Below, in pieces: positions 9,901 through 63,575 of a DNA stretch of 64,000 nt. Location of the stretch: contig NC_134843.1 in the NCBI RefSeq assembly GCF_965363235.1, positions 50,463,535 through 50,527,534 on the forward strand, in the 5' to 3' direction. Made by a program: the position numbers and the translations under genes. Origin of the DNA: Mytilus galloprovincialis. Lineage: Eukaryota; Mollusca; Bivalvia; Mytilida; Mytilidae. The notes beneath the pieces were generated by a model, which had not been told where the DNA came from, ran no database searches, and saw nothing but the letters and a program-made list of their open reading frames with translations. The stretch's first letter is position 1; each line of letters starts with the position of its first letter.

Positions 9901-9949
9901 AGTTTGAAAATTGTCTAAGCTTTGTACCTGTAAAATGTCCGAATTTCTT

Positions 9950-10717
9950 TTATGCAGAAGATCCTCTGGGAACTGTGAAGTTACTGTTCCCTCCGTTCTT
10001 GCATTCCTTGGCACAATGCCCATACAACCAACACTTGTAGCAGATGTCTCTGGCTTTTGATCTGACGAATCTTGAATAAGGGCCCGATGCCAAGCCAACA
10101 CGAAAGGGCGGCTGTGAAACAGTTGCAACACCATCAGCTTCACGAGCGACTGACCAAGGACCACCTGCAGCTTCAGCGGGACTTTTCTTTACACTTCTGT
10201 TACCGTTACTACCCTTTGTTACTTTCATCTTCTTCACGGCTCTTGTCTCTGCAGCTCGTATCTTCTTCTCATCTTCTGAAATGCTAGCTACCTCGTCAGA
10301 AGGATATTCGTCAACGGTTTTCCATCCTGGCCCTGACTTGTCCGCTATACGGATCAGTTTGTTTCTCTTCTTTAGCACCTTTTCAGACTCCTCCAACAAC
10401 AAAACGGCCTTGGAATATCTCTTATGATGCAAGTTGTCTAAAGCACCACTAATATTTGCTAAAATGTCTGAATTTAGATCAAACTGCACCTGATTTCCTT
10501 TGTATCGTAAATTATTCTCGGTCTTCTTGACTTTACGGGCTAAATCCTGAGTAGTGTCAGCGAAATTTCTTTCAATCCCCGGCAATTTCTTACCAAAGTA
10601 GTTTTGCATAAGAGAAAGCAAATCAGCATTGGAAATCTCCTCATCAGGAACCACAGCATGTGAAGCAACTTCAGGTTGAATATCATTCAATAGGTTGTCT
10701 GGCTCAATATCGGACAT
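9950..10717 (-). CDS. Gag-like protein with zinc knuckle
   Basis: A 255-residue open frame starts at the ATG immediately inside terminal repeat A1. The middle region is rich in lysine and charged residues (about 60-170). The C-terminal part carries one CCHC zinc knuckle, CYKCWLYGHCAKEC, spacing C-x2-C-x4-H-x4-C, at about residues 226-239. Such proteins bind element RNA and form the nucleoprotein particle. An overlapping frame at 10164-9634 leads into the RT region, so gag and pol probably overlap. The frame has no internal stop and is the best preserved gene of the element. Confidence 0.75.
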   Translation of the reverse strand: MSDIEPDNLLNDIQPEVASHAVVPDEEISNADLLSLMQNYFGKKLPGIERNFADTTQDLARKVKKTENNLRYKGNQVQFDLNSDILANISGALDNLHHKRYSKAVLLLEESEKVLKKRNKLIRIADKSGPGWKTVDEYPSDEVASISEDEKKIRAAETRAVKKMKVTKGSNGNRSVKKSPAEAAGGPWSVAREADGVATVSQPPFRVGLASGPYSRFVRSKARDICYKCWLYGHCAKECKNGGNSNFTVPRGSSA

Positions 10718-10721
10718 GATG

Positions 10722-10926
10722 AAAATAAACTTCTACCTATTATATATATATGACGTGCGCGTATGTGGTCACTACCCAGTCCTCGATAACTAAAAATCCG
10801 TGCAATTTCCTTTCATACTGACCGCCAAACCGGTTAACGGCAATAGTATACAATTTATACAAAATCTCTTTATGAAATCAATGCGCAATCTTTCAAATAC
10901 CTTCCGCATACCGCACATAAATTCAT
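10722..10926 (-). repeat. Split direct repeat A1 (element 5' terminus)
   Basis: The partner of A2. It starts just upstream of the gag ATG on the minus strand and probably contains the element promoter. Its outer end, CCGCACATAAATTCAT, equals the A2 sequence that abuts B1. Confidence 0.85.
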
Positions 10927-12275: not shown

Positions 12276-12456
12276 ATTTCCAAGCAGACACAACAACGTT
12301 GAATCAACATTGAATAAACGTCAGATTTCAACGTTGAATTCATGTTGAAAAGTAGTGTTGGATTGAAAATTGATATGACGTTGAAAACATAACGTTGTTT
12401 CAACGTCAGATTTCAACGTTGAAAATAGGTTGAATTTTGGTCTAAATTTGGTCGAG

Positions 12457-12690
12457 GTTTGTTGAAAACAAGTCGATTGTTTGTTGAATTGTGATTATTG
12501 TATGTTGAAATCAGGTCGAATGTTTGTTGTTCTGTGGTTAGTGTATGTTGAAATCAGGTCAAATGTTGGTTGTTCTGTGGTCAGTGTATGTTGAAATCAG
12601 GTCGAATGTTTGTTGAAGTGTGGTTAGTGTATGTTGAAATCCGGTCGAATGTTGGTTGTTCTGTGGTCAGTGTATGTTGAAAATGAGTGG
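12457..12690 (+). repeat. 43-bp tandem repeat, about five units
   Basis: The unit begins GTATGTTGAAATCAGGTCGA and ends TGTGGTTAGT. Near-identical starts fall at 12500, 12543, 12586, 12629 and 12672. The array adjoins the left CAACGTTG-rich terminus and appears derived from it, since GTTGAAA is shared. Confidence 0.85.
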
Positions 12691-13930
12691 GATGTGTGTC
12701 CAGGTAAACTTTTAATGTGGTAAATATGGAGAATAGGATGTTGACCAATGGTTGAATTGAGCTTTTTTATTACCCTTTATTATATCCATCAAAACCATTT
12801 TATGCGTAATAAAACTGTCGCACAACTATATGTTGGTGGTTGGTGTACATGTAGTTTGTAGTTCTGTTGGTATACATTTTTGTGCCTTCACTTTTCTTAA
12901 TAGACATGATCTTGCTTTACCTATAACTATTATGTTCACACTCAAAATATGTTTGTGACATAACACAGTAGTTATATAACAAGTTACACACATATGCCCC
13001 TTACAATGTCAAACAAACACAATTAATCTGATTACTTAATTTTATTTTTAAAAAATAGTCCATCTGCTAGATATCTTGTTCTGTTGTTCCATATTGTGGT
13101 CTCTAATTTTTACATTCGAAACTTGTTACTACAGCATCTGCAACAGAAAAAAAACCATATTGTACTATCTTTTACATAACTGGGTTAATTTCATTATGCA
13201 GCCCAAATAAAGAACACTAGTTTCATTCGAATGATATAGTTATTTCTTTAAATAATTATCAATAGCTATCATGACATTTTTTTTAAAACTTGAGTTCAGA
13301 TAGTAAATAATAAATCATTTTAATAAAAACAAACCTAATGATTTTAGTAGACAAAGATGCAGGGCCAATTTAAAAGAAATTGTGACCAAAATCTCACACA
13401 CTTTTATGTGAAAAAAAGCAATGGTGTATATTTCAATAATCACCTCTTATTATTTCAATCGGTCAAGCTTGGACACCATAGGCATATTTATTCTTTTTAC
13501 CCGAGATGTACTTTACAGACATGGATTTTTTGGTAAGACATCATCTACAAAAAAATACGTTTATTTAATTACAGCATTTTCAAATTCTTAATTCCCTCCT
13601 GAACTAGTAAATAAACACGCTTACAAAATTTGGACATCCAAAACCTTTCATTGGGGACTTTCTGATTTGAATTTTCCTCGGAGATCACTATAATATATTG
13701 TTGTGATCTTACATTTTTTCAATAATTGGTTGAAAAACTTTAAGCCCAATAATTATTATTGTAGCATTACGGGAAGTTTGTCCAGTCGAGAATCAAACAT
13801 GATTCTGGAACCAGTGACAGATCCTGAAATTTTCATAAGGGGTCCCCTGACTTAATAACAGAGGGAGGGGGGCTCAAGTCATGCTTTGGTGATTCAGTAT
13901 ATAATCAACCAATTTTTCCCTCTCAAGGGG
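12691..13930. other. Interior of the 3.4-kb element, no gene seen
   Basis: AT-rich sequence with only short frames. A fragment of repeat R4 (TTTGAATTTTCCTCGGAG) lies at about 13660-13685. A purine-rich GAGGGAGGGGGG patch lies at about 13862. Confidence 0.5.
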
Positions 13931-14182
13931 GACCACAAGCATTGAGATTTTGACAGTCACTCATCTTGATATACAATACTGCACCACAATCACCGAGATC
14001 TTGACAGTCACTCATCTTGAGAAACAATATTGCACCACAAAAACCGAGATCTTGACAGTCACTCATCTTGAGATACAATACTGCACCACAAGCACCGAGA
14101 TCTTTACAGTCACTCATCTTGAGAAACAATAATGCACCACAAGCATCAAGATCTTGACAGTCCCTCATCTCGAGAAACAATA
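13931..14182 (+). repeat. 51-bp minisatellite, about five units
   Basis: The unit begins GAGATCTTGACAGTCACTCA and repeats every 51 bp. Because 51 is divisible by three, the array leaves open frames on both strands; the minus frame gives a 17-residue repeat resembling MSDCQDLGACGAVLYLK. I see no start context, flanking exon or domain that argues for translation. Confidence 0.85.
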
Positions 14183-15430
14183 TAGGTCATACTTTACATC
14201 TAATTTTTTCATGATCTTTCTTCAATAGATACTTTCGACATAGTTGCTAAACTTTGAACCTGTGTTTACATTTTTCTTTAAACTGCAATACATGTATATT
14301 CCAGTCTTTCGTGATACGTCTTATTTAATTTTCATTTGCATGCATATGGATTAAGTTTAGACATTAAAAATAAAAGAATATTTGTTTTAATTCCTTGACT
14401 TTTTTTGTGCTGTAATAATTCAATTGATAAATCATCTATTTAGACGTTATCATATGGACCACTTTGAAAATGGACAGATCATTGTGTATTAATTTGTTAT
14501 GGTCACACATGTTTCTTATCTGCCGTATTGCTTCATTGATAAATCCTCGGAATACATGCTGTGAGTGACATCTATTCTGACCCAGAGAAAAGAATTTGTT
14601 TGTTTTGAATGTGTTGCAAGGTCAAGAATGGCGTGTGTTGTAAATCTTTGACTTGTAATTATATCAGCATATAAATCATGTAAAAGAACTAGTATGAGAT
14701 CGCATATGTGAACTTCAATAATTATATATTATTATTTGCCAGACGAATATATTTTTTTTTTCAATTTCAACCGATGTTCCATGATATATTATGACTCCGC
14801 CCTCCCAGTATCTGCAATGATAGAATTCTTTGCCATACGCTTTTGATTTAAATTACCAAATCAATGTTCATAAAAACACTCTCCCTTTTCAAGTCTTAAC
14901 ATAATAAGTTGCCGCACCCAATCAATGTACAAATATATCTTAAGGTCAACCTTGCTGCTCCCCGAGACTACAAAGACATGTGTGTTTAATTATAAATTAT
15001 ATCTGATCTGCTTAAATCACTATACTCATATCATGCATAGAATTACGGTAAACGCTACACTATTGTATATCTTAAATTATCATATAACTAGCATTAAACT
15101 AAACAAGAAATGAAAATTATACTTACTTTACACTGCTGAGAGCAACTCTTAACTTGATGTGGTAATCAAATTGGCGCAAATAAATTCAAAATGTCGGTCT
15201 TCTACGCATGTGCCAATTAGAAAAAGATATCCGTTTCAAGTATTTATAATAATTATAATAATTTTATCGCAATTTAAAGATTAATTTATATATGAAACAG
15301 TAATCATTGAATTTATTCAAAAAAATCATTAAACCAATAAAAAAGTCATCATTTAAGCAAAAAGGGAAATACACAAAATTTGGTTCAATCTCATCTTGAT
15401 TGAAATTTTTGTCGACACTTAAAGTCATCA
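14183..15430. other. Interior of the 3.4-kb element, no gene seen
   Basis: AT-rich, non-coding by inspection. Nothing recognisable apart from homopolymer tracts. Confidence 0.5.
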
Positions 15431-19090: not shown

Positions 19091-20534
19091 ATGACCATTT
19101 CAATGATAATTCATGTCAACACAGTAGTGCTGACTACTGGGCTGATGATAAATACATGCATAGATACATTCATTGGAGTAACTTTTATTGAGGATTGTTA
19201 TAGTAAAATAACCCTAGATACATACTATATTCAATTAAGGAGAGTAGATGATGTGATGTACACAATACACAATTGTATAAGTAACTTACAGAAAATACTT
19301 GATATTTCAGATCCTTATTGTCCTAAGTTATAATATATATGAATTTAAGAAATTCTAAGTAATTTTTTAAAGTAAGAAGAAAGAAAACTCTTTTTGCGAA
19401 TCATCTAGAACCGTTTTTTGGTTTTTCAAAACACATGGCCGGTATATGTGTTTATTGATTCTTACATGTTACGGTATGCACATTATCATGACGTTTGTGT
19501 AATTTGTATTTAAAACTTGGTACCATACATAGATATTACTTTTAGTTGCAAACTAACACAACATTAAGCCTAATTACTGTCGAAGGTTTCCCACAATAGC
19601 CTGTGGTAATCGTACACTTGTCAACTTCCCAAACCAACAAATCCACCGTTCCATTCTACCTTAATTAGAACGGACAAAATCTTGAAATTCAAATATGAAT
19701 CGATTCAAAACTCGATATTAATATTGAATGCGTACAACTACAACCAATGAGCCTTTTTATAGACTTTTAACAAACAAGAAATCTGTAAAGTCTATATTTA
19801 TTGCGACGGTGTCTGCAACAGTTGTACGAATTCCAACTTCAAAAACATACATCAATACTAGAAATAACGGAGTATTAGACTTTCCGATTTATATTGTTCT
19901 CGGAGATCAGTATTTTAGTGATTTTACTTTTCAGTACATTTTTTATATAGGTTCGTCACAAGAGCTACATGTTTAATTTCGAAATACAACCATGAGTGTA
20001 CATTCTTATTTTTAACGACTTACGTGAGATGTATGACCGGGCAACAGCGAAACAATGACTATTTCCTATCTAAAGTGTACATTTAGTCATAGGAAATTTA
20101 CTGCTACTAAAGGTCAGTATTCTCCGAATTTATTTGCAAGTTATAATAAAGAATGAACACAATTTTGAGTAGATGCACATACAAAAATACAAAATATGAA
20201 TAATAAATGAAAATGCGATGGAATTAATTCTTTAATTACAAGAGTAACGCGTATGTAGAAATAATCGAAAAGTCCAATACGTATCATATAAAGAATGTAA
20301 TTGAGGAAGTTGGTGTTTAATTGTTTCCTCCTTCACTGGCACACATGTACAGTTGACCTTCAAAGGCTAAATATTCCTGTGACAATTTAAAGTCGTCGTT
20401 CAACTGCTTATATATGCAAACATCATACATTAGGACGACAAAGACAGATACGACATACTATACTACAACCTCCTAACATTTTGTGGAGAGTTTGGAATGT
20501 TAACCTTCAGTGAAAATACAGAATGCTATTCCAA
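19091..20534. other. AT-rich intergenic sequence
   Basis: No gene seen. The frames at 19091-19333 and 19728-19976 lack domain features, splice context or compositional support. Confidence 0.5.
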
Positions 20535-20725
20535 ATTATATAGTTTGGTTCACAAATTTGAATTTTGTGAACGGAGTTACACTTACCTGATAGGTTTACA
20601 TAATTGGATATTCTCTCCGGTATTTGGTCTTATCTCGCTCAAGCGCTTAGCTGATCTTTTAAAAATCATCTACATCTATATCAGTTAAGCGCTTAGAACC
20701 TCAGTTTTCTCCGGCGAAAATCCAG
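20535..20725 (+). repeat. DIRS left inverted terminal repeat
   Basis: About 150 bp (20576-20725, including ATCTACATCTATATCAGTTA and AAGCGCTTAG blocks) are the inverted copy of 25693-25845. The outer 40 bp contain a separate palindrome, GGTTCACAAATTTG and its inverse. Confidence 0.9.
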
Positions 20726-20776
20726 CTGAATTCACCAAAAGAAATTACTGAGGGGAGGAGGTGGGTAGTATATCAA

Positions 20777-20875
20777 GTAAGTGTAACTCCGTTCACAAAA
20801 TTCAAATTTGTGAACCAAATTATATAATTTTATATTCACTCCGTTACACTTACCTGATAGGTTTACATAATTGGA
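20777..20875 (+). repeat. DIRS internal complementary region (ICR)
   Basis: The left half (20777-20827) is the reverse complement of the left outer end (about 20535-20587). The right half (20828-20875) is the reverse complement of the right outer end (about 25814-25861). In DIRS-1 this region templates completion of the element ends during circle formation. Agreement is nearly perfect. Confidence 0.9.
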
Positions 20876-21200
20876 TACATCCAGAATTCAAAGCAGTACT
20901 TTGTTCTGTGGTTGGTAGTAATTTCTTGTTCAATTTATATATATACACTGTACATTTTTAAAACAATAAAATCACTCCTCCTCTTCTCCATGTAAAATAT
21001 CATCCATTATTTACACTAATATTAAAATGAATATTCTGTTTTTCTATCATTCAAACACTTTGTAGTCTATATTCATCATCTAAAATTCCATCGCATCTCG
21101 TCGGAAATGAGGATTTCAATATCTTTATATTATATACATGAATGTACAATATTTTTTAAATGTTTATTTTATATATTTTTTTTCTTTCTTTTTTCTTATT
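20876..21200. other. DIRS element 3' untranslated region
   Basis: AT-rich sequence between the ICR and the end of the recombinase gene; no further structure recognised. Confidence 0.5.
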
Positions 21201-21203
21201 CAA

Positions 21204-22484
21204 CAATTAAGATAAAACGCTTGGTTCTAGATTTCTCAAATAGAATTTCGTGAAAGTAGACTCTCTACTCCAGTCTGCTGCTTCCATGATGGATTTCATA
21301 GATGAACCATTAAATAGGGCCCATGAAGGACCAATAGCTCTTGTACTATGCGCCTATACATACTTATTTTTGTCATTATATGCCATTTGGATAGTTTGGA
21401 CAATCCAATTCGAAATTGCCTGACTAGAGACCGGGTTGTGCGGACTATTTACACTTAAAAACACTTTACTGTTACTTCTGTCACAATTACGGAAGTTATC
21501 TGTCATTTTCAAATAATAAAACAATGACCTTTTCGGATTCAATAATTTGTTGTCCTTAAAACTTGGAACAAATATTTTTGAACCATTATGTCCAGGACGA
21601 TCCTGCTTTGAAAGGCCTTCTCTAATGAAAAACACACCAGTACTATGCACACTAATATTACCATCTCCTATTCTCAATGCTTGAAGATCACTACAGCGTC
21701 TGAAAGTAGTAATAGCAATTAAGAAAATAGTTTTCCAAGTAACATATTTTTTTAAAACACTGTTTTTCATTGGTTCAAATGGACTTTTTTGTAACATGTC
21801 TAAAACTTTCAGAAGATCCCATTCTGGTAAAAGTATAATTTTAGGTGGTCTTGAATTGAATACACCTTTTAAAAGTCTTATTATGTATGGATGTTGGCCT
21901 ACAGGAATTTTTTCTATAGGTGGTAAGACTGTAGATAACATGGACCTATATCCAGCTATTGTTCTATATTGAAGTCCCTTAGTAAACAGACCTGTCAAAA
22001 AATCTGCTACCTCTGTCAAAGAGGCAGTATAGGGATGAATTTCCCTTTCATTACACCAGCTACAGAATTTTTTGAATTTGCCAGAATAATCTTTTTGAGT
22101 TCCTGCCCTCCATGAGGCAGACAATAATTGTCTAGTGTCCTTAGAAAAGCCTCTCTTTTTAAAGAGTCTGTTGATAGAGGCCATACAGTTAGATTGAATA
22201 TTTCTGGATTTGGATGATAAATCCGTGAATCCGGCTGGTGTAAAAGATTGCTTTGAATTGGAATTTTTAAATGGTAATCTACCAGTAATTTCAACAGGTC
22301 TGGGCACCAAGGTCTTCTTGGCCAATGTGGTGCTATTAGAAGAATTTGACACCTGTACTGGGACATGTGTTGTAGAATTTTTGGTATTAGGCATATTGGA
22401 GGATATGCATACCCGAACAGATTCTGCCATGGAATTGACAGTGCGTCTAGAGCATAAGCTTGATTGTGAGGAAACCACGTGCAA
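21204..22484 (-). pseudogene. DIRS tyrosine recombinase
   Basis: A 376-residue open frame (22484-21354). Residues about 110-200 form the core-binding domain. Then comes FRRCSDLQALRIGD with the first catalytic arginine. The frame meets a TAG at 21354-21356. Beyond it the same frame resumes with AHSTRAIGPSWA (H-x-x-R box), AADWSRESTF and a terminal FTKFY with the likely nucleophilic tyrosine, ending near 21204. The stop therefore removes three of the catalytic residues. The start overlaps the RT-RNase H frame by about 470 bp in another frame, as in other DIRS elements. Confidence 0.9.
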
Positions 22485-23126
22485 AAAATTTGAGTTTGCT
22501 TGTTAAGGATTGATGCAAACAGATCTATTGTTGGTGACCCTAGCTTTAGGAATATTTTTTGTACTATAGATCTTTCTAGTGTCCATTCTGTGTGTCTTAT
22601 TTTGTTTCTCGACAATAAATCTGCTAGAATGTTTGCTTTGCCCGCAATGTGGGCTGCTTTCAATTGAATCTGATGATAGATTGCCAAATTTCATAATTCC
22701 CAAGTTTTTAGACAAAGAATCATTGATTTGGTACCCCCTTGACGATTGATGTATTGTACCACCGTTGAGTTGTCGCAACGTATTAATACATTTTTCCCCC
22801 TCAATTGGGATACGAAGTGTTTTATCGTTCTTATCACTGCTTCCATTTCTAAGCAGTTGATATGGAGTTTTTTCTCCGATAGGTTCCAGGTTCCTTGTGC
22901 TATCTGAGTCCCCATGTGACCTCCCCAACCCACTGATGTTGAGGCATCTGTTGTCATAGTGGCATGGGTTTCCCAATGTTTCAATGATCTCCCCTTTTTT
23001 TATGTTAGTTTGATCTAACCACCATTTTAGATGGCTTCTTAGATGTGCATTAATTGGGACTTTGAACTCCAGATTCTGTGAAACTGGTTTCCAAAATTTC
23101 AACAGATGTATTTGAACAGGTCTCAT
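22016..23126 (-). pseudogene. DIRS RNase H and connection domain
   Basis: The RNase H core lies at 22984-22691 with TTDASTSVGWGGH (first Asp), CLEMEAV (Glu) and IRCDNSTVV (second Asp). Its frame ends in a TGA at 22688-22690 where the flanking reading continues directly into 22687-22016. That part includes HIAGKANILADLLSR (last Asp region) and the IDLFASILNKQ post-RNase H block. A frameshift near 22985 joins it to the preceding RT segment, and another near 23125 separates the RT frame. The domain would degrade template RNA during cDNA synthesis. Confidence 0.85.
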
Positions 23127-24129
23127 GTGTAATCTTGCATTGGGGAATTATTTCTAAGCAGGATGACATTATCCCTAGAAGTTGAAGAAAATCTCTGGCT
23201 ATTACTTGATTTTGAAGGATCATTGCCTGGGATGAAGTTATTAATTTGGACGTTCTTTCCACTGTTGGCAAAACGATCCCCAGATCCAAGAGAAACATTG
23301 CCCCTAAGTATGTTATCTGTTGTGATGGATCCAAAGTGGACTTTTTTAAGTTTATTATGAATCCTAGTTCGACAAGGAGATTGAGTACTAATTCTCGATC
23401 TAATATTAATTGACTTTTTTCCTGATTCAGAAGGAACCAGTCGTCTAGATAGACAACCAGTCGTATGCCCCTTGACCTTAAATGGCCAGCTACTACTGCC
23501 ACAATTTTTGTAAAAACTCTTGGGGCTGAGGTTGGACCGAAAGGTAGAGCCTTGAACTGAAGAGCTCTCCCGTTTTTTAGACAAAACCTCAGATATTTCT
23601 TGTGCGTTTTGTAAATTGGGACGTGTAAATATGCGTCCTTTAAGTCCAGACTGATTCCCCAATCTCCTTGTTTCACGAGATTGAGAACCGTAGAAAGGGA
23701 ATCCATTTTGAAATGTTGTTTTCGGAGATACTTGTTGAGGGGTTTTAAATTTATTACTGGTCTCATGTCCCCTGTTTTCTTGGGGACAAGAAAAAATGTG
23801 CTGTAAAAACCGTTTTCTATTTCGTTCAGAGGTACATATTCTACAGCTTCTTTTTGTACTAGCTCTCTTACTTCTGTATCTAAAATATCTAGATCTTTTG
23901 CAGATACACAGGTGTATTTTATTCCTGTGTTCTTTGGAATCTCTAAGAATTCCAGTTTGTAACCCTCTTTTCTAACAGAAAGCACCCATTGATCGTCTGT
24001 TATTTGTTCCCATTTTTTCAGAAAATAAATTAGACGTCCCCCAACAGGTATCTCCGGATGACAAGCCATGATATTGCTTACCTTTAAATAGTCATTTTCT
24101 TTGTTGGTTTTTTTTCCTGGTTGCCCCAT
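23050..24129 (-). CDS. DIRS reverse transcriptase
   Basis: A 359-residue frame containing the RT fingers and palm: LDLKDAY at residues 161-167, LPFGPTSAP at 195-203 and YLDDW at 227-231, giving the catalytic aspartates. A thumb follows to about residue 320, and after that the frame drifts into unrelated sequence because of an indel near 23125. YLDDW and LPFGPTSAP are typical of DIRS1-group RT. The N-terminal linker (24266-24084) is in another frame, separated by a run of A (T on the plus strand) near 24110. Confidence 0.9.
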   Translation of the reverse strand: MGQPGKKTNKENDYLKVSNIMACHPEIPVGGRLIYFLKKWEQITDDQWVLSVRKEGYKLEFLEIPKNTGIKYTCVSAKDLDILDTEVRELVQKEAVEYVPLNEIENGFYSTFFLVPKKTGDMRPVINLKPLNKYLRKQHFKMDSLSTVLNLVKQGDWGISLDLKDAYLHVPIYKTHKKYLRFCLKNGRALQFKALPFGPTSAPRVFTKIVAVVAGHLRSRGIRLVVYLDDWFLLNQEKSQLILDRELVLNLLVELGFIINLKKSTLDPSQQITYLGAMFLLDLGIVLPTVERTSKLITSSQAMILQNQVIARDFLQLLGIMSSCLEIIPQCKITHETCSNTSVEILETSFTESGVQSPN

Positions 24130-24262
24130 GAGGGACGAAAATTAGTTCCTGTTTTCTCGAACTTATTGTCACTCTTGTCAGGTCTTGAAACAGTGCTTGT
24201 TCTCTGAAAAGAACGCTGAGTACTTGGAGTTGATTTAAAACTGTTCTGATTAACATTTTGTT

Positions 24263-25615
24263 TCACACGTTTTGCTTGCCAATCATTAGAAGCAGTGTTT
24301 TTTTTCTTTTACCCAGAAAAGACCCAGGTTTATTTCCAATAAGTAACTCAGGAAGCAATTCTTTAAGTTGTTTGTCTTTTTCTATCCTATTTTTCAAGGT
24401 TTGTTCAAACTTGTCACCAAACACTCCACTGCTTGAAAGTGGTAAGGAAATTAAAGAATTTTTAAGTTCTTTTATATCATTTAACCCAGTATCTTCCATT
24501 ACTAGTTTTCTTCTAATAAGGTGATGAATAGCACCTGCTCTTGCAACCTGATCAACACTTTTTGTTGACATAGCAAAGATATCACGAACTTGTTGTACTG
24601 TCCTATCCATAATCAACTCTTTGTCTAATAATGCTTCTAATAATGTACCTAATGCCTGTTGCATGTAAGACGATGAAACAATACCCATTTTAGCAGTAGC
24701 TTGTCCTTGATAAGCCAATTTTTCTACTGATTTTAGATAAGGTGTATATAAAGTCTTTTTCTTATTAGAAATTGTAAAAGCTTTTGGACCATGTTTTTTA
24801 ACTAGTAGGTCTGATGTAAAGCTATCTAGACAAGGTATATCCAAATGTTTTTCAAAACTTTCATGTACTGGGAAACACAACTTATATTGCTCATTGTATG
24901 CAGTTATCTTTTCTGGTTTTTCACAATGCCATGATCCAGAAAGAATATCAATCTGACTTTTGTCTAAAACAAGGCCAACTGACTTAGAAACTGATTTAGT
25001 TTTGGCGTCGTCACCAAATAACTGATTAAGATTGTCAATACCAGAGTCTGTTTCCTCAGTTTCTTGACACTTTAAATATTTACTGAACCTAGCTACAGTA
25101 TTATGGTTTTCATTGTCACTTCTCATTGAAGTCCCATCTTCTTCATCTGAGAATAACCCAATGTTAAGTCTCTCTGAACGGCCTGGTGCCAGAGACATAA
25201 CATCTCCATGTAAATTTTCCTCTGCCTCATTATCTGTAGGCAAATTTACATCAGGAGTTTGTGTTTCTTGTAAAGGTCTGCGCGCTCCCGAAGAGCCGCT
25301 ATCCTGTTGATTACAAGTAGAAACATTTTGTACCTGCTCACCCGAAGTGCCAGGGTTTTGACTAGTTTCCATAAAATTACATATTTTATCTAACCTTGAA
25401 TCAAATTGGGCAAACCTGCTTTCCCATTTCTGTGCTAAGGCGTCTAGCTGGTCGTCCTTTTTCTTGGTAGACCTGCTTTTGCTCTTCTTAGACGAAGAAG
25501 AAGAACGAGTACGAGCCGCCATCTTTGTCGTTTCGTTCGCGTCAGTTGACAAACTGGGACGTTCCTGCAAAACGTCGTCTTCGCTATTTGAACCGTTCAT
25601 AGCGACTTCTGCCAT
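24263..25615 (-). CDS. DIRS gag-like ORF1
   Basis: A 450-residue frame starting about 80 bp inside the right terminal repeat. The N-terminus has a Ser/Lys/Arg-rich segment (about residues 35-55) and then an acidic, glutamine-containing stretch. The central part (about 215-400) is a more ordered, conserved-looking region with SGSWHCEKPEKI and KKHGPKAF. No zinc knuckle is visible. By position this is ORF1, presumably the nucleoprotein. The frame breaks in a homopolymer near 24300; the continuation toward RT lies in the frame at 24266-24084. Confidence 0.75.
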   Translation of the reverse strand: MAEVAMNGSNSEDDVLQERPSLSTDANETTKMAARTRSSSSSKKSKSRSTKKKDDQLDALAQKWESRFAQFDSRLDKICNFMETSQNPGTSGEQVQNVSTCNQQDSGSSGARRPLQETQTPDVNLPTDNEAEENLHGDVMSLAPGRSERLNIGLFSDEEDGTSMRSDNENHNTVARFSKYLKCQETEETDSGIDNLNQLFGDDAKTKSVSKSVGLVLDKSQIDILSGSWHCEKPEKITAYNEQYKLCFPVHESFEKHLDIPCLDSFTSDLLVKKHGPKAFTISNKKKTLYTPYLKSVEKLAYQGQATAKMGIVSSSYMQQALGTLLEALLDKELIMDRTVQQVRDIFAMSTKSVDQVARAGAIHHLIRRKLVMEDTGLNDIKELKNSLISLPLSSSGVFGDKFEQTLKNRIEKDKQLKELLPELLIGNKPGSFLGKRKKTLLLMIGKQNV

Positions 25616-25692
25616 AATGTTAATTATTTTAATACTTCTTAACTCATAAACTAATTATTTCAATGTATTTTCTCAGAGCGAAAACACGACCG

Positions 25693-25861
25693 GCTGGATT
25701 TTCGCCGGAAAGAAGACTGAGGTTCTAAGCGCTTAACTGATATAGATGTAGATGATTTTTAAAAGATCAGCTAAGCGCTTGAGCGAGATAATACCAAATA
25801 CCGGAGAGAATATCCAATTATGTAAACCTATCAGGTAAGTGTAACGGAGTGAATATAAAAT
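25693..25861 (-). repeat. DIRS right inverted terminal repeat
   Basis: Inverted partner of 20535-20725, with its outer end GGAGTGAATATAAAA repeated in the ICR. It lies upstream of ORF1 and probably contains the element promoter. Confidence 0.9.
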
Positions 25862-28923: not shown

Positions 28924-29812
28924 CTGAAAAACTAAGAATTAAAGAAAAGAAAACAAATTTATTTAACACCAATTCGTGTATCAATAATTGACAAAACAAA
29001 AACAATTGGAACATGATGAAACATATGAAAGACTTTCACTCCAAAATGATTTATGTTCATGCAAAAAAAAATGAGGTCGTGTTTCTGTATTAAGCGGATT
29101 TGATAATTCGACATATGCATAATAATTTCAGACAATATAGTTTTGAGAATATAAATGAGAATTCCTTGAAATGTAAATGTGTCATTTCAGCAGAGAACCG
29201 CCACCATTTCGTTTAATGATTCGTCCCACAACAATTATCGATTTTTAACAAGCAACACTGATTTTTAACAAATTAGATAACTAATGGAATGATATCAAAC
29301 GTTTTACCTACCGAATTAGACTATTTACCGGATTTGTAATCACATAAGCAACACGACGGGTGCCACATGTGGAGCAGGATCTGCTTATCCTTCCGGAGCA
29401 CCTGAGATCACCCCTAGTTTTTGGTGGGGTTCGTGTTGTTTCTTCTTTAGTTTTCTATGTTGTGTCATGTGTACTATTGTTTTTTCTGTTTGTCTTTTTC
29501 ATTTTTAGCCATGGCGATGTCAGTTTGTTTTAGATTTATGAGTTTGACTGTCCCTTTGGTATCTTTCGTCCCTCTTTTATATGTATATGTTTATATTGCA
29601 TCAAATATCGTCGGCGTTCTTAGGATGACATCTCAATGATTAAATAGATTGTGTCTTATTTGAATACACACTATGTGCTGATGCATTATAATGAGAGTAT
29701 GATTTTCAAATTGTTTCTGTAGGCCTTTGTGTAAATGGAATACATGTTTCAGTGTGTTCTCAAATACGAATATTAATCTGTGTACGGTATATGTCTGGAT
29801 AGCACCACATAC
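28924..29812 (-). other. Intron of the GTPase-like gene
   Basis: An 889-bp interval between a donor (GTATGT after 29813) and an acceptor (CAG before 28923). It contains a full R1 repeat copy at 29290-29575. Confidence 0.5.
29290..29575 (+). repeat. Dispersed R1 retroelement 3' end (plus copy)
   Basis: Well-conserved copy: ACCGAATTAGACTATTTACC, then TGCCACATGTGGAGCAGG, and ending TTTGGTATCTTTCGTCCCTC. It is the inverted equivalent of 44285-44600. The frame at 29457-29639 belongs to this repeat and is not a gene. Confidence 0.75.
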
Positions 29813-41869: not shown

Positions 41870-42140
41870 CTGTATGTGTCTGTCTCAAGACAGAAGCCTG
41901 TAATTCAATGGGTGGAGCGTGTTGCTTTATATAAGTTTTTCTTGATTTTTTTTTACATAAATCAGCCCAATTTTATTATTTGAATTGTTTTACATTTGTC
42001 ATTTGGGGGCCTATTAAAGCTGATTATTTAACTCATTATAGAAGGCCGTACAGTGACCTACAATTGTTAATTTCCGTGTCATTTGGTCTCTTTTGGAAAG
42101 TTGTCTCATTGGCAATCATACCACAACTTCATATTTTTAT
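41870..42140 (+). repeat. Dispersed repeat, family R3
   Basis: Relative of 37180-37475: TGTCTGTCTCAAGACAGAAG, GAAGGCCGTACAGTGACCTA, TTGTCTCATTGGCAATCATA. Short pieces of the same family occur within both arms of the foldback element at 51397-55092. Confidence 0.65.
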
Positions 42141-42267: not shown

Positions 42268-42313
<46 letters not shown>

Positions 42314-42465
42314 GTCTGAGTCAGTGACAACCCTAAAACAGATATATCCATCGGATCGCCATCAATGATGGTGATACATGGCTGTGTACATAATGTATAT
42401 ACAACTCGTCTAAACATCAACCCAACAATGTTAGATCTGTAAATTTGCTTTCGCAAATTTTTGGT

Positions 42466-42562
42466 TCTTCCCTCGCCGGGATTCGAACCCATGCTACTGT
42501 GATATCGTGACACCAAATCGCCTGCACTGCAGCCGTCCCGCTAGACCACACGACCACCTGGG
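42466..42562 (-). ncRNA. tRNA-like SINE head (minus copy)
   Basis: Inverted copy of 42903-42998, with an A box TGGTCTAGCGGG and a B box GGTTCGAATCC at the standard tRNA spacing. No proper acceptor stem, so not a functional tRNA. Confidence 0.65.
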
Positions 42563-42902
42563 CTCTCAAAAAAAGAGCTTTCGCTGGCCATGTGTTACCT
42601 TTCCACGTCAGTTTTAATCTAGCGGCGTACTACAGTACATGATATATAAGGCATGAAGATGTTATTGTTACAGATCAGCTAAATTATCTAGGGTTGTCAC
42701 TGACTCAGACGTACTTATGAATATAATTATTTTCTGTGACTGTATCTTACATTAATTTGTAGGATCCTTTACTATAGATAATTTAGCTGATCTGTAACAA
42801 TAACATCTTCATGCCTTATATATCATGTACTGTAGTACGCCGCTAGATTAAAACTGACGTGGAAAGGTAACACATGGCCAGCGAAAGCTCTTTTTTTGAG
42901 AG

Positions 42903-42998
42903 CCCAGGTGGTCGTGTGGTCTAGCGGGACGGCTGCAGTGCAGGCGATTTGGTGTCACGATATCACAGTAGCATGGGTTCGAATCCCGGCGAGGGAAG
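42903..42998 (+). ncRNA. tRNA-like SINE head (plus copy)
   Basis: A box TGGTCTAGCGGG at 42919-42930 and B box GGTTCGAATCC at 42976-42986 form an internal RNA polymerase III promoter. The long interval with a pairing GTCACGATATCAC-type arm resembles a class II (Leu/Ser-type) tRNA, but the acceptor-stem halves do not pair. Confidence 0.65.
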
Positions 42999-43061
42999 AA
43001 CCAAAAATTTGCGAAAGCAAATTTACAGATCTAACATTGTTGGGTTGATGTTTAGACGAGT

Positions 43062-43106
<45 letters not shown>

Positions 43107-44284: not shown

Positions 44285-44600
44285 CAATTTGCATAAAAGA
44301 GGGACGAAAGATACCAAAGGGACAGTTAAACTCATAAATCTAAAATAAACTGACAAAGCCATGGCTAAAAATGAAAAAGACAAACAGACAAACAATAGCA
44401 CACATGACACAACATAGAAAACTAAAGAATAAACAACCTGAACCCCACCAAAAACTAGGGGTGATCTCAGGTGCTCTGGAAGGGTAAGCAGATCCTGCTC
44501 CACATGTGGCACCCGTCATGTTGCTTGTGTGATAACAAATCCGGTAAATAGTCTTATTCTGTAGGTCACATTCATGAAAGGGAAGGGGATTGTAGTTACG
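44285..44600 (-). repeat. Dispersed R1 retroelement 3' end
   Basis: Inverted equivalent of 29290-29575: GAGGGACGAAAGATACCAAA at one end, AGATCCTGCTCCACATGTGG in the middle and GTAGGTCACATTCATGAAAG at the other. The minus frame at 44261-44512 is retroelement sequence. Confidence 0.75.
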
Positions 44601-48251: not shown

Positions 48252-48574
48252 CTGTAAAAGAAAGACTAAATTGAACAAACACAATGGTCTAGAAAAACTA
48301 CAATATTAATATCATACTACTCTTGAATAAACATGATGATTGATTGATTGGTGTTTAACATCACTTTCAACACTATTGTGCTATTTATTGATAGTTGGTA
48401 CCTAATAACAACCTAAAAAACCTTGAATCTGATTTTCACAGTCCAACTTTATCATGTTTATACATGTACATGTTATATGACATGCACTTAGAGCTAGTGA
48501 CCCCTAACCAACTTTTTTTCAATTTCAAAACTTTCATCCATCACTTCAATGGCTTAAAAAAGCATCATATTTAC
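48252..48574 (-). other. Intron 1 of the TRIM-like gene
   Basis: A 323-bp intron with GT and AG ends and no recognisable repeat. Confidence 0.55.
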
Positions 48575-49368
48575 CTGTTATCAATCTTCGATTCCATATA
48601 GTCCTGAACTTCTTGATATAAGAATTTATCTTTAAAAATTGGAACTTGTGCTTCTTCGGGTTCTTCTGGTATATTAACCAATGTTTGAATATCACTGTCA
48701 ATTGATCTATAACTTGAATAAAATGTCACATCATGTTTCTCCAACAAAACATTCTCCAGTTCTGATAATATTTGTGTGTATTGCTTATGAACTGAGTCTG
48801 TGTTGTCAACAAATGCTTTTAAATTTTCTTGCTCATTTTTTTCATTGTCCTCTACTTCAGTTGCTTTGATACTTCTCTTCGATTCTATACAGGACTGAAG
48901 ATCTTTGCTGACAAATTCAATATGTTCAATACATTGTTTGCTCTTAGAATGGAGTTGTTCAAAGTGAGTTGTCTTGACTTTTTCTTGCAGGGTAGATATT
49001 GCATCAATTTTCAATTTTAATTCTTCAATATTTTCTTTTGCTTTTTCTCTTTCCTTTACTACAATTTCAGTTATTTCTGAGAAAGGATGTGTATAATGTG
49101 TAGATGTTACGCACTTACTGCAAATAAAAGTATCGCATTTAACACAGTAAAACAGGAATTCTTTCTCGTGTTCTAAACAGTGAGACTTTTTGTTGACAGT
49201 TGAAAGATCTACTGTATTAATATCTGCGACTGTGTGTCCACTTAGAGCTGGAATCTTACCGTGATTATTGCGACAAACTGTGCATAAAGCTTGTTGGCAT
49301 TCATAACAATAATATGCTCCATTCTGTTCATCACACAGTGAACATTTCTGTGCCGAAACCTGTGCCAT
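48575..49368 (-). CDS. TRIM-like B-box protein, first coding exon
   Basis: Encodes 264 residues. A first zinc-binding module, B-box 1-like, has C9, C12, C21, C24, C29, C32 and H36/H45. A B-box 2 spans residues 64-94 (C64, H67, C75, C78, C83, C86, H91, H94). From about residue 100 a long charged coiled coil follows (EREKAKENIEELKLKIDA). There is no RING finger at the N-terminus, so ubiquitin ligase activity is not indicated; many bivalve TRIM-like proteins have this RING-less form. Exon 1 ends at a GTAA donor. The ATG at 49366-49368 is the first in the frame. The C-terminal domain lies outside the exons found. Confidence 0.85.
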
Positions 49369-49865
49369 TTCAGAGGAACAAATAATTACTGGGGAAAGAA
49401 ACTATAGATACTACGTTAAGAAGTACGTCAACTTTATCTATGTATTATCCTCCTGCAAATAAGAGCACCTTCATATGGATGTTATACCCTTAACTTGACT
49501 GAGTCTCTGACTCTTACCACAGGATAAAAATTCAAACTGGAGTCAAAAGTTGGTTATGTGAAAAATAATAATGCACAATACATGTATATATTTTCTGAGA
49601 TATGTTCCTGATATAGGCTACCCTACTGGTCCGGGCCAGGTTAAACAAATATTTCATTATATGTATTGTAATTTGCGTTATTTTTACATTAATTTTACAA
49701 GTGTACGATATGGAACTAGTAATATGTAATAAAACTTTTTTTTTATATTTACAATATTGCATAATTTCAAATTCTTATAGTCTATTTCAAGGTTACCCAT
49801 AATACACCGCGCGCTGGCGGAGTTCCGGTTAAATGTAAAGAAATTGAAAAATTATACAGTGTAAA
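49369..49865. promoter_or_regulatory. Probable bidirectional promoter region
   Basis: The 497 bp between two divergent first exons. No clear TATA box or CpG island stands out. A short G/C-rich patch (CACCGCGCGCTGGCGGAG) lies at about 49805, some 60 bp before the plus-strand ATG, where a start site could lie. The promoter role is inferred only from the arrangement. Confidence 0.45.
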
Positions 49866-51240: not shown

Positions 51241-51433
51241 TTGAAATTAGTGTACGATCTGTGAAATAATGTCTGTTTATTAAATCTTTGATAGTGTAAA
51301 CTATAAAGCACCAGCAGGATATGTCTAATTTCTCAAGGGCAGTGCATCTGATCACTCCTTATCACAGTTGTGTAAATTTACAATCAATAGATTAACTACG
51401 GAAGCCGATAAGGGCCATTCAAAAAAAAAAATT

Positions 51434-51652
51434 TATGTCGTAATTACGACATAGCATGTCGTAATTTCGACATAACATGTCGTTATAACGACATCACTGT
51501 GTCGTAATTTCGACATAACATGTCGTTATTACGACATCGCTATGTCGTAATTTCGACATAATATGTCGTTACAACGACATCGCTATGTCGTAATTTCGAC
51601 ATAACATGTCGTAATAACGACATAGCTATGTCGTAATAACGACATCACTATA
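51434..51652 (+). repeat. Array of 18-bp palindromes, left arm
   Basis: About ten consecutive copies of ATGTCGTAATTACGACAT and close variants (TTATAA, TTACAA, TTTCGAC centres), separated by a few bases such as AGC or CGC. Each copy can fold on itself. Confidence 0.9.
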
Positions 51653-54600
51653 TATATTAAAGAATATGTATTATGATTGCCAAGACACTAAATGACACAG
51701 AAATTAACAACTATAGGTCATATCATAATGCCCCCAATAACTAGAAAAGCCCCCGCATAATCAGCTATAGAAGAGGGACGAAAGATACCAGAGGGAGAGC
51801 CCCCGAAATTGCTGTGTGGCAGACAGTGTTATTAATTAATTATTAGCTCCCTTGGTAAAACTCCAAATTCCATATTTAATGTATTTCATTGTTAAATAAT
51901 TTACATGAATCTGAATAAGTATATATCTGTTAATTGCATAGCTTTTGCTATTTGAATTCATTGATTAAAAATATTTATTTATATTGTAAAGTTTAATATT
52001 TGTATCGTCGCAAAATCTTTGGTCACCTTCTTTGGTTACCTTCTGTGAGAAACTTATATATTTTATAGATCCTGATTGGACGTAATAAGTAACCAACCTG
52101 GGACTATGAGGACTGACCTCAAGTCCTATCAAGGCGAACAAAGCTTTCCACCTCTCATTAAAGAAGTGCAGAACTCCATGGTTTGTTGTCATGAGGGTGA
52201 ATGGACGTATCGATTGCTTTGTATTTACTGTCAAACGATGGGCACGATGTTCCTAAAACACGACATTACACATAAAAAGCGGCGTCGAAGAGGGTTTTTG
52301 ATTAATTTTTGCAAGTTTTATTTGTTTTTTTTTATATGTTGGTTGATTTATTTATTATATTACAAAATTCTGGTTCTGTTCGTTTTGTGATGTCATTTTA
52401 TCATAAATTACCTCAAGTTGTGGAAATCTATTTAATAATGTTTACCCTTTAAGTTATTTCAACTAAAAATGCATTACTGTCGCAAGTAATGTGGGAAAGA
52501 AAGATGGGACGGAAGTAGATATAGAAAGATGTGGTACAGTTTTCCATAAGAAAGATATTTTTTTTTAGATGTACGAAACTTTTATCATATGATGTTTAAC
52601 TTTCAAGGTGCATATCATCTAGCTATCTGTCATTGTAAAATTTAACTCAACCCCAATACAAATATATCTGACACTCTGCAAGTAAATCGAACATTTTTAC
52701 CCTTGGTTAAATTTGAATAGAATTGTATTTTCCCTGGTACATAAGTTGTCGAAATACACCCCTTCAATTACTTGAACCTTGGCTTGAGAATTATTTCCGC
52801 GCAAGTCATCTATAGTGTTTAATTTCTGATATACATTTTAAAATATAGTAATCTACTCCTGGATCGTCCGCGAAAACGGCTTAAATAATCCCGGGTTTTT
52901 AAAATTCGATGAAACGGTTTTCGTCGCTGTTTGGGATTTGTCTTTCAATTACTAGTACCTCCATTTCATGCACAAGTTTATATTGACGAAAAGTTCCGGT
53001 TTCGCTAGTACAGGAATTAATTTCATCACGACAGTTATAACATGAATAGCAGGACAAATCGCGAAGTAAAACACTCCGTGAACTAGTATAAGTCTTTTAA
53101 TATTGGTGATTGCACCTTACTGAAGTGACGACTTTAAATGATCTATGGAGTACTTCCACAATATAAATTTCAATTCGAATTTTACATTTAGAGGACTGTC
53201 TTGGTGTCTAAAATTTGTCTTTGCAAAAGTTGGACGAAGTGTTTTTCCCCATTTCACCATTCTTTTAAATAAATCGTTAAAAGCTATAAACGATTAATAA
53301 AAATTACAAAATTTAACCTGTGTCGAACCTATGTCCCCGGGTGGAGTCTATAGCAACATGCGCTATTCTTTTTTTTCGGCAGCAATCATCAACCTGTTTT
53401 TCCAAATTTCATAACACGATTTGTTTTAATTATCATAAACATTTAATTGAAACTTTAGCACATGTAACGACGGAAATAAGCGTCTTTCGAACTTTCGACG
53501 TTTGGACAAATTGGCTACTGTTTTGTAATGTGTGGAAGCATTTTATTCCTTTAAGACCCAAACATGTAGTTAATAAGAAAAGAATCTTGGCATTTTTTAC
53601 TCTTCGTGTATCTAACTTTTGTTTTGATTAATTATAAAAAATACGCGTTAACTGCTTTGAAAAATGAAATATCAACTTGGACGAAATGGCTACCGTTTGA
53701 AAAACGACTGTGTAGAGAAGATTTTATTGAATCAGCAATATTTGAACTCACGAACAATAAGGCAAATATTTGTACTTTTGTTAGATATTATTATTGTCTT
53801 ACTCTTTTTATTCATTTTCTGCTACTTACAAAATTCACTTTCAGTCGTTGAGATAACGAAAAACGTCGTTGGACATTTTTCTTATTCCCGCTTAATATGA
53901 AGCCACCGAGTCAAATAAAATTTGGCAAAAATAACGGCTTTAACGCCACAAAGAACCGACACCTGTCGTTGTTCCTGCCAAGTATCAAGAAGATCAGAGA
54001 ATAAGAAATAGGATCACTATACATAAGATTTAAAACAGTTTTTCATAAATGTAACGTTGGACATCCGGTTTTTTTCACATAGCTTTGCTAATCTAATCAT
54101 CAAATATACTAGATATTACTTAGTATATGATCAAGAGCTGTAAAAACATAATTTGAAACATATATTGAATTTGTTTTAATATTGGTTCGTGTTTTCTAAC
54201 ATTTTTATTTTGTTTTGCGGATGAAATTTCGAAGATTCTGTTTTAAATCCTAAAGGTTGTAGGAACATCGTGTCCAACGTTTGAAAGTCGAAAGAGAGCA
54301 ATCAATACATCAATTCACCCTTATTACACGAAGGCATGTAGTTAGAGCTTGTTTATAGGTAGGACTATATGTCAGTCCTCATATAATTCCACACATATTT
54401 GTTCGAACAAGTAGAAGGTTTATAAGACCTTGACTGACTCTGCATCACTTCCACCTTGAAGGACTTAAATAGGATCTATAAATTATATAAGTTTCTCACA
54501 GAAGGTAACCAAAGAAGTTGACCAACGATACAAATATTAAACTTTACAATATGAATAAATATCTTTAACCAATGAACTCAAATAGCAAAAGATATGCAAT

Positions 54601-54887
54601 TAACAAATATATACTTATTAAGCATCATGTAAATTAATCAACAATGAAATACTTTAAATATGAAATTTGGAGTTTTACCAAGGGAGCTAATAATTAATTA
54701 ATGTTAACACTGTATGCCACACAGCATTCCGGGGCCTCTCCCTCTGGTATCTTTCGTCCCTCTTTTATAGCTGACTATGCGGGGGCTTTTCTAACTATTG
54801 GGGGCATTATGATAACATATAGTTGTTAATTTCTGTGTCATTTAGTGTCTTGGCAATCATAATACACATTCTTTTATATACATAGCG

Positions 54888-55052
54888 ATGTCGTTATTAC
54901 GACATAGCTATGTCGTTAAAACGACATGTTATGTCGAAATAACGACATAGCGATGTCGTTATAACGACATGTTATGTCGAAATTACGACATAGCGATGTC
55001 GTAATAACGACATGTTATGTCGAAATTACGACATGCTATGTCGTAATTACGA
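54888..55052 (-). repeat. Array of 18-bp palindromes, right arm
   Basis: About eight copies of the same palindrome family, the inverted counterpart of 51434-51652 but two units shorter. The unit-count difference suggests gain or loss of units after the arms were formed. Confidence 0.9.
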
Positions 55053-55098
55053 CATAATTTTTTTTTTTGAATGGCCCTTATCGGCTTCCGTAATTAAC

Positions 55099-61854: not shown

Positions 61855-61959
61855 TTTAGAAACTAAGGTTTCAACTCCCTTAGAGAAAGTTGGCTTTAGA
61901 TGGATTTAGCTATTTATTTCAATAGGTATTTTTGACATTATACATGTAGCTCTTCAACG
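61855..61959 (+). repeat. Direct repeat flanking TTAA MITE region, copy 2
   Basis: Partner of 60915-61012. It ends only a few bases before the frame that contains the gypsy integrase. Confidence 0.75.
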
Positions 61960-61970
61960 AATGGTATGTA

Positions 61971-63575
61971 ATGGTGGTCGCTTTCGCTAGATGTCTTCTT
62001 TATTTATATAATATCATTATATATGAGCTAAATAATGAATTATTGGGACCCAGCGAATCAAATTGGTTAGAACAATGGACACCGCCGATATTACAAAAAT
62101 TGCAGATGGAAGACGAAACTATCAGTACAGTTATTTCCTACTTAGAACAAAATAACACAAAACCGTGTATACGGAGCCAAAACCAAGATTTAGTTACCTT
62201 GCTGAGACAGTGGGACCAACTAAGTATCGAAAACGGCTTACTTTACCGTAGATATACAAGAATAGATGACAAAGTTTTTCTTCAACTTGTAGCGCCAAAA
62301 GCTATACGACTACAAATTATGCAGCAATTGCATAACAATCGAACGGCTGGCCATCTTGGGAGAGAGAAAACACTGGGGAAATTGCGTTCTCGTTTTTATT
62401 GGCCTGGAATGACAAACGATGTCATTCGTTGGTGTCAGACGTGTGGTCCTTGCGCCAGATCAAAACCTGGTCCTGGCATTGGAAAGTCTCCAATGCAACA
62501 TTGCACGGTATACGGTCCGTTGGAATGTATAGCAATAGACATAATGGGTCCACTCCCAGAAACGGATAGCGGTAATAACTACATAATGGTTATTGGCGAC
62601 TATTTCTCAAGATGGAAAGAAGCATTCGCGCTTCCAAATCATACGGCACTAACGGTAGCTGATAAACTAACCACTGAATTTATTTGTCGTTTCGGTACTC
62701 CAACAAGAATTCATACAGACCAAGGGAGAGAGTTCGAATCGGTGCTTTTCGCCGAAATTTGTAAGTTGTTAGGAGTTGAAAAATCGCGCACTACGCCATA
62801 TCATCCCCAATCCGATGGAATGGTCGAACGTTATAATCAAACCGCACAGATTATGCTTGCCATGTATGTCGACGAGAACCGTTCTAATTGGGATGATCAT
62901 TTGCCTTACGTAATGATGGCATACCGGGCTGCAATACATGAGAGCACAAAATGCACCCCTAATAAACTCATGCTCGGGCGAGAAATTTCTCTGCCAATAG
63001 ACGTAATTGCCGGCGCTCCGCCCAAAAGTACAGGAACTGAGTGTCCTGTACAGTATGTAGAATGGGTAAAAGATGCGCTACAAAGGGCATACGAATTTGC
63101 GCATGAAAACATGCAATCAAGTTTTCAAACAAATAAAAGATACTATGACGTGAAACTTAAAACCCGGACGTTTGAAATTAACCAACTCGTTTGGTGTTGG
63201 TATCCACCTCAGGCAAATATTAAACTAGGGTTAGGATGGACAGGTCCGTACAATGTCACCAGGAGACTGTCTGATATAACGTATCAGATAACGTCGTGCG
63301 CTACAGGGAAATCAAAAATTGTTCATGTTAATCACTTAAAATCGGTAGTCGGCGACGGATACATAAATCAATTGACAACTGTCGATATAACTGGACAAGA
63401 CTACACCGAAACTGAATCTGGAGATGTTACCGTTCATTTTGACAATGAAGTCGAAACATTATTAAATAAAACTGAAACCAACGAATCTATTGAAGCAACA
63501 TCTGTTGTCAGTCCAAAACCTCAATACACAACAAGAGGGCGTTTAATAAAACCAAGAATTCCATATACACCATAA
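61971..63575 (+). CDS. Ty3/gypsy pol, integrase part
   Basis: A 534-residue uninterrupted frame. Residues 1 to about 20 are probably not element-derived, so the ATG is not meaningful. The integrase has an HHCC zinc domain (H121, H128, C155, C158), then the catalytic core with D190 (AIDIMGPL), D250 (HTDQGREFES) and E286 (SDGMVERYNQ), a D-D-35-E arrangement. A GPY/F module follows (GWTGPYNV at about 440). The protein would insert the LTR-retrotransposon cDNA into the genome. Upstream RT and RNase H are absent, because the 61855-61959 repeat lies immediately before. The acidic C-terminal tail ends at a TAA. Confidence 0.93.
   Translation: MVVAFARCLLYLYNIIIYELNNELLGPSESNWLEQWTPPILQKLQMEDETISTVISYLEQNNTKPCIRSQNQDLVTLLRQWDQLSIENGLLYRRYTRIDDKVFLQLVAPKAIRLQIMQQLHNNRTAGHLGREKTLGKLRSRFYWPGMTNDVIRWCQTCGPCARSKPGPGIGKSPMQHCTVYGPLECIAIDIMGPLPETDSGNNYIMVIGDYFSRWKEAFALPNHTALTVADKLTTEFICRFGTPTRIHTDQGREFESVLFAEICKLLGVEKSRTTPYHPQSDGMVERYNQTAQIMLAMYVDENRSNWDDHLPYVMMAYRAAIHESTKCTPNKLMLGREISLPIDVIAGAPPKSTGTECPVQYVEWVKDALQRAYEFAHENMQSSFQTNKRYYDVKLKTRTFEINQLVWCWYPPQANIKLGLGWTGPYNVTRRLSDITYQITSCATGKSKIVHVNHLKSVVGDGYINQLTTVDITGQDYTETESGDVTVHFDNEVETLLNKTETNESIEATSVVSPKPQYTTRGRLIKPRIPYTP

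Follow-up and report, generated by a model that had tools for sequence, protein, structure and literature searches.

A foldback structure of 3.7 kb lies within the 64,000-nucleotide stretch of Mytilus galloprovincialis DNA that we analyzed (hereafter, the window), and it raises three questions: whether its boundaries are those of an intact transposon, whether it belongs to a dispersed family, and which type of transposase could have moved it. The copy in the window is an element of 3,696 bp (51397-55092) that is bounded by perfect 6-bp duplications, ATTAAC. Its left end reads TACGGAAGCCGATAAGGGCCATTC, the right end is the inverted copy of this sequence, and the two ends align without a difference over their outermost 35 bp, after which a 1-bp indel occurs. 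The terminal 20-mers are found twice in the window, compared with a mean of 0.00 across 100 whole-window shuffles, and 525 16-mers from the segment are found again in its reverse complement, compared with 0-3 in 20 Markov-1 sequences. A preliminary description, made from the sequence alone, regarded the insertion boundaries as certain, and the duplication present on both sides of ends that are identical for 35 bp supports that view. The coordinates are collected in Table 1.

Table 1. Features of the foldback element and its flanks; positions are those of the window.
Feature	Position	Strand	Remarks
Target-site duplication ATTAAC, left copy	51391..51396		Flank reading
Whole element, 3,696 bp, TAC..GTA ends	51397..55092		TAC-end flanks unrelated at six other loci
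Left terminal segment TACGGAAGCCGATAAGGGCCATTC, then A-run	51397..51431	+	35 bp identical to right end
Left array, 10 units of the 18-bp dyad ATGTCG-N6-CGACAT	51435..51645		21/22-bp spacing (43-bp pairs)
Left arm, inner part	51646..52073	+	Holds 34-bp and 39-bp dispersed-repeat pieces
Decayed inner extension of inverted arm	52172..52259	+	78% to 54256-54343
Center	52074..54470		No frame beyond chance length, no Pfam family above cut-off
Partner of decayed inner arm segment	54256..54343	-	
Right arm, inner part	54471..54887	-	
Right array, 8 units of the 18-bp dyad ATGTCG-N6-CGACAT	54888..55055		
Right terminal segment, inverted copy of left end	55058..55092	-	
Target-site duplication ATTAAC, right copy	55093..55098		Flank reading

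The left arm is approximately 677 bp long and the right arm approximately 622 bp, and with the flanking duplication counted in (51392-52073 and 54471-55097) the arms are 86% identical over 685 aligned columns. From the outside inward, an arm consists of a 24-bp terminus, an A-run, the array of 18-bp dyads, and approximately 420-430 bp of additional sequence. An element counts as a foldback when tandem repeats lie within long inverted arms at its ends, and the foldback shape with tandem arm modules that had been recognized earlier is therefore upheld, with 10 and 8 dyad units in the two arms. A second inverted pair further inward, which is weaker and more decayed (88 nt), suggests that the arms were once longer. 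The arms had also been described as mosaics of a palindrome array and fragments of two other repeat families. The array is real, and the two-family mosaic was overstated, the pieces in question being only 33-39 bp long: a 34-bp piece of the left arm (51766-51799) is common to the dispersed repeats at 29548-29581 and 44293-44325 (33-34 bp, 91-94% identity), and a 39-bp piece (51682-51720) is common to 42054-42092 (37-39 bp, 84-87%).

To look for a family, we took the first 110 bp of the element as the query against the host assembly (1.385 Gb, 331 contigs); this query includes part of the array, so that a partner sharing the terminus alone would be missed. The search gave 275 matches, many of which are repeats within arrays and hence provide no copy number, and 40 of 690 first-look candidates were scored. 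Among the matches listed, 44 extend outward at least to query base 7, which we count as reaching the terminus, and they are spread over 13 contigs; the window is one of them, and a pair of loci that look alike, on contigs C295 and C5, is also included. We examined eight loci, of which L001 is the window, L006 equals L008 in its arms, and the six others are distinct. The same TAC end is present at seven termini in these six other loci, and BLAST finds no similarity among the 300-bp sequences outside TAC, nor between these and the flanks of the window copy, the sole flank-to-flank match being that between two overlapping flanks of L008. The supposition that the element might represent a family is thus borne out by further loci with the same ends and unrelated flanks. 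Judged from these sequences, the element is a member of a real, clean, dispersed family of nonautonomous foldback transposons.

The left-end copies at L002, L003, L004, and L005 are 90.3%, 96.2%, 93.8%, and 91.1% identical to the window element, respectively, over 1.5-1.7 kb of columns each. The copy at L007 is 89.8% identical over 1,241 columns and then 97.9% identical over 420, the alignment jumping element bases 1225-2121. The right-end copy at L008 is 94.4% identical over 1,469 columns (element bases 3696-2266), and the left-end copy at the same locus, a diverged subtype, reaches just 84.5% over its own inner 0.96 kb. Among the matches listed, opposite ends are found, by arithmetic on their positions, 3,786 bp apart on contig C4 (9659325-9663110) and 3,758 bp apart on contig C2 (45653155-45656912), which is near the full length. 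Because the copies share much of the noncoding center, the 3.7-kb unit probably moves whole, and the alignments indicate that it most likely multiplies in this form, center included; none of the other loci examined extends over element bases from approximately 1662 to 2121, so the movement of the complete unit is something that we infer.

Some copies lie, or may lie, close to other copies. At L008 (1446-1526), and likewise at L006 (770-850), the ends of two elements lie back to back, 33 bp apart, and because one belongs to a right arm and the other to a diverged left arm, two different copies stand nearly end to end. In the flank of L002, where the terminus is at 1602, an 11-bp piece of the terminus, CGGCTTCCGTA, is repeated three bases outside the end, as if the copy had inserted into or next to the end of another copy. 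At G000:C2:45653086-45653256, a 73-bp terminus match is followed directly by a longer match to the terminus in the same orientation, which is a possible self-insertion. In six of nine flanks, AC stands directly outside the terminus. A target preference for AC is possible and serves as a lead only because the search favors query-like flanks: the query itself reads AAC there, and 24 of the 44 listed terminal matches extend at least to those two flank bases.

The arms also appear to be inherited. In the 440-bp stretch on the inner side of the array, divergence is 1.1-5.9% among six left arms, 3.8% between two right arms, and 9.2-11.7% between left and right arms; the diverged left arm of L008 lies outside both groups, 9.8-12.1% from all other arms. 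In this sample, which holds two right arms only and in which both of a copy's own arms are visible in the window copy only, the arms group by side and not by copy. The arms therefore do not seem to be equalized at each jump, which counts against models in which insertion involves the copying of one arm from the other. Since the six left arms cluster and the two right arms cluster, we consider regeneration of the arms at each insertion to be unlikely. The pattern of divergence suggests that left and right arms probably separated before the copies spread.

We next consider what the element encodes. The longest open frame in the center is 104 aa, a length that was reached by 57 of 300 Markov sequences and is thus at chance level. 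A Pfam scan of the eight center frames that run from stop to stop over 55 aa or more found no family above the cut-off (best E 0.023), in agreement with the earlier statement that the center contains no known transposase. A coding center is rejected for the window copy on both grounds, and the element must therefore be moved in trans. An RNA gene is likewise rejected. Rfam returned 40 sub-threshold matches in and around the palindrome arrays, 35 of which name microRNA precursors, and each of these falls below the gathering score and is a hairpin look-alike; at the gathering threshold there was no match in the window or in L008. No phage or plasmid relatives were found by blastn. A search of viral contigs for the exact terminal 20-mer and for the 18-bp palindrome, and of prokaryote genomes for the 20-mer, gave no occurrence.

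The dyad array is the most regular part of the arms. In the window copy, 17 of the 18 dyads are exact ATGTCG-N6-CGACAT, and their spacing, with a mean of 21.5 bp (approximately two helical turns), is 21 and 22 bp in turn, so that the true period is the 43-bp pair. Nine distinct arms hold 6, 8, 8, 8, 8, 9, 10, 10, and 12 units, 79 in total. The number is even in eight of the nine, as expected if array length changes by whole 43-bp pairs, which could take place through unequal exchange or slippage. A dyad scan that admitted up to three half-site substitutions returned 84 rows, of which 69 are exact and 79 keep both half-site CpGs; the five rows that fail the CpG test are chance matches downstream of the array, given that the nine arms hold 79 units. 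The spacer is more variable: positions 2, 5, and 6 differ in 37-50% of the rows. When the first three units of six left arms were compared index by index, half-sites differed in 0 of 540 and spacers in 8 of 270 comparisons, pairwise counts that are not independent, and the conservation of the half-sites may come partly from recent copying of array units rather than from constraint. From the symmetry, the phasing, and the low half-site variation of the sequence and by analogy with Galileo, which provides a precedent, the dyad is most likely bound by a dimeric protein, for which the transposase is the simplest candidate.

The window contains other repeats and frames that we mention in their own right. 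Short tandem arrays with periods of 43 bp and 51 bp are present at 12418-12718 and 13932-14186, and the sequence of the 43-bp unit in this pair is unlike the palindromes of the element. Perfect inverted arms of 298 bp (100%), with 84 bp between them, occupy 42393-43072 and have an (AT)n run (42270-42312) and a (TA)n run (43064-43104) as neighbors; this may be a young hairpin element that lies within a TA microsatellite, or else an artifact of assembly. At 20533-25861, inverted end pieces (135 bp at 99% and 51 bp at 100%) surround long minus-strand frames, one of which has the reverse transcriptase domain RVT_1 (E 3.5e-22), in a layout that we take to be reminiscent of DIRS-like retrotransposons. 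A second, shorter set of minus-strand frames at 8247-10732 includes one partial RVT_1 match (E 7.5e-9). A 541-aa frame at 61950-63572 has the zinc-binding, core, and C-terminal domains of an integrase and by domain content is the integrase region of a retroelement. Near the insertion, at 48574-49401, a 276-aa minus-strand frame with B-box zinc fingers is possibly the exon of a host gene.

The superfamily was judged from the termini and the duplication. According to the published passages on IS3EU (with GingerRoot), complete families always have TA..TA termini and usually have 6-bp target-site duplications (PMC10045372), and an account of TET-bearing IS3EU elements in rust fungi gives, in the part that concerns us, terminal inverted repeats longer than 30 bp and the ends TAYGG..CCRTA (PMC12730594). 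The window copy has TAC..GTA at its two ends, or TACGG..CCGTA when five bases are read, 35 bp identical at both ends, and the duplication ATTAAC, a length of 6 bp that comes from this single insertion. These ends and the 6-bp duplication are closer to the published IS3EU signature than to that of Mutator-like foldbacks or TTAA targets. The element differs from IS3EU in that it has no transposase and in its very long arms with palindrome arrays, which the IS3EU passages do not describe. We think it probable that the element is a nonautonomous cut-and-paste transposon of the IS3EU type that has foldback arms and is moved in trans, and the family is best filed, provisionally, with IS3EU, a class assignment that rests on the ends and one duplication. 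TA..TA with 6 bp is a short signature, and another group could share it.

Under the IS3EU assignment, a DDD/E transposase of the IS3EU type, supplied by another element in the genome, would recognize the TACGG..CCGTA termini, cut out the 3.7-kb unit, and insert it at cuts staggered by 6 bp, which would produce the 6-bp duplication. The 18-bp dyads would most likely serve this protein, in its dimeric form, as operator-like sites and would aid in finding and pairing the ends.

An alternative source of the transposase is a MULE, in which case the element would be a Mutator-like foldback of the FB, Phantom, and Tetris kind. Long arms with internal repeats and a noncoding middle agree with this reading. 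Tetris, a foldback transposon of Drosophila virilis, is likewise nonautonomous, has tandem repeats inside long arms, and has boundaries marked by duplications, and the published text suggests, in the part that treats its affiliation, that it belongs to Mutator (PMC4079207). However, the duplications of Tetris are 8-10 bp and its repeat unit is approximately 220 bp, compared with 6 bp (one insertion) and 43 bp here. Since 4-10 bp is given for IS256/MuDR overall in the corresponding passage of PMC10045372, the sole measured duplication of 6 bp weakens the reading rather than excludes it; the TACGG..CCGTA ends, by contrast, match published IS3EU, and we regard mobilization by a MULE transposase as unlikely. 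The preliminary description had also seen a resemblance to Drosophila FB elements. The resemblance is supported for the foldback shape and not for membership; the single measured duplication of 6 bp and the TAC..GTA ends fit IS3EU better than Tetris.

It is no more probable that the element belongs to an undescribed or unrecognized DDE superfamily that shares the ends of IS3EU by chance, the array then being an operator for a host protein or a passenger satellite. The assignment of the superfamily from the ends and one duplication only leaves room for this reading. However, the agreement amounts to five terminal bases per end in addition to the 6-bp duplication, and the dyad half-sites look held in place.

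Two further readings are far weaker. Polintons, or Mavericks, have AG-type ends, exceed 15 kb in size, and carry genes for a capsid, a polymerase, and an integrase. A deleted Polinton/Maverick would account for long inverted ends and for 6-bp duplications, which the relevant passage gives for Polinton (PMC10045372), but no Pfam family was above the cut-off in the eight center frames of at least 55 aa, and this origin is very improbable. Least credible is a TTAA-targeting element such as piggyBac or Kolobok, which is largely refuted: the true duplication would be the TTAA contained in ATTAAC, but the ends would then no longer match to the last base, TTAA is absent from the last six bases before the terminus in all seven flanks of other copies (0/7), and the only two of the nine flanks in which it occurs belong to the window copy.

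The published literature was also searched for the family. Five strings of 16-17 bases from the terminus and the palindromes had no match in a literature text search. In the literature that names both IS3EU and Mytilus, IS3EU occurs only in a superfamily list and in connection with oyster satellites, and the family was not found; the same was true of the examined part of the literature on foldback elements and Mytilus. The 17 superfamily profiles applied in a survey of bivalves do not include IS3EU, and the text of that survey never mentions it, so the survey is uninformative either way (PMC10294476). Two satellites of Crassostrea gigas, CgiSat47 and CgiSat35, are labeled DNA/IS3EU in the passage that lists them. 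The unit of CgiSat47 is 129 bp, or 3 x 43, a numerical likeness only and thus a lead.

Foldback-like transposons of other groups indicate why this family matters. Galileo, a member of the P superfamily, likewise has long, internally repeated arms, and transposase-binding sites lie within them: footprinting located one THAP-domain site at approximately 70 bp from the end, and the repeats were found to contain additional sites (PMC3688188). Galileo differs in having a P-type THAP transposase, and the sites in the mussel element are regular palindromes in an array. The same source ties Galileo to chromosomal inversions (PMC3688188), and Tetris has been linked, in the passages concerned, to the birth of satellite DNA. 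We put forward, as a tentative and rather doubtful extension of the IS3EU assignment, that the foldback shape arose in the IS3EU lineage independently of Mutator and P, and that the ATGTCG dyads, phased at two helical turns, load dimers of the IS3EU transposase onto both ends and could seed scattered satellite-like repeats of 43 bp. Most foldback transposons are thought to be members of Mutator, and the idea that the foldback shape evolved independently in different lineages is cited in the same part of that work (PMC4079207); a foldback family with an IS3EU signature would support this idea. Moreover, because the dyads are so regular, the claim that arm repeats bind the transposase is directly testable in this family on short synthetic DNA.
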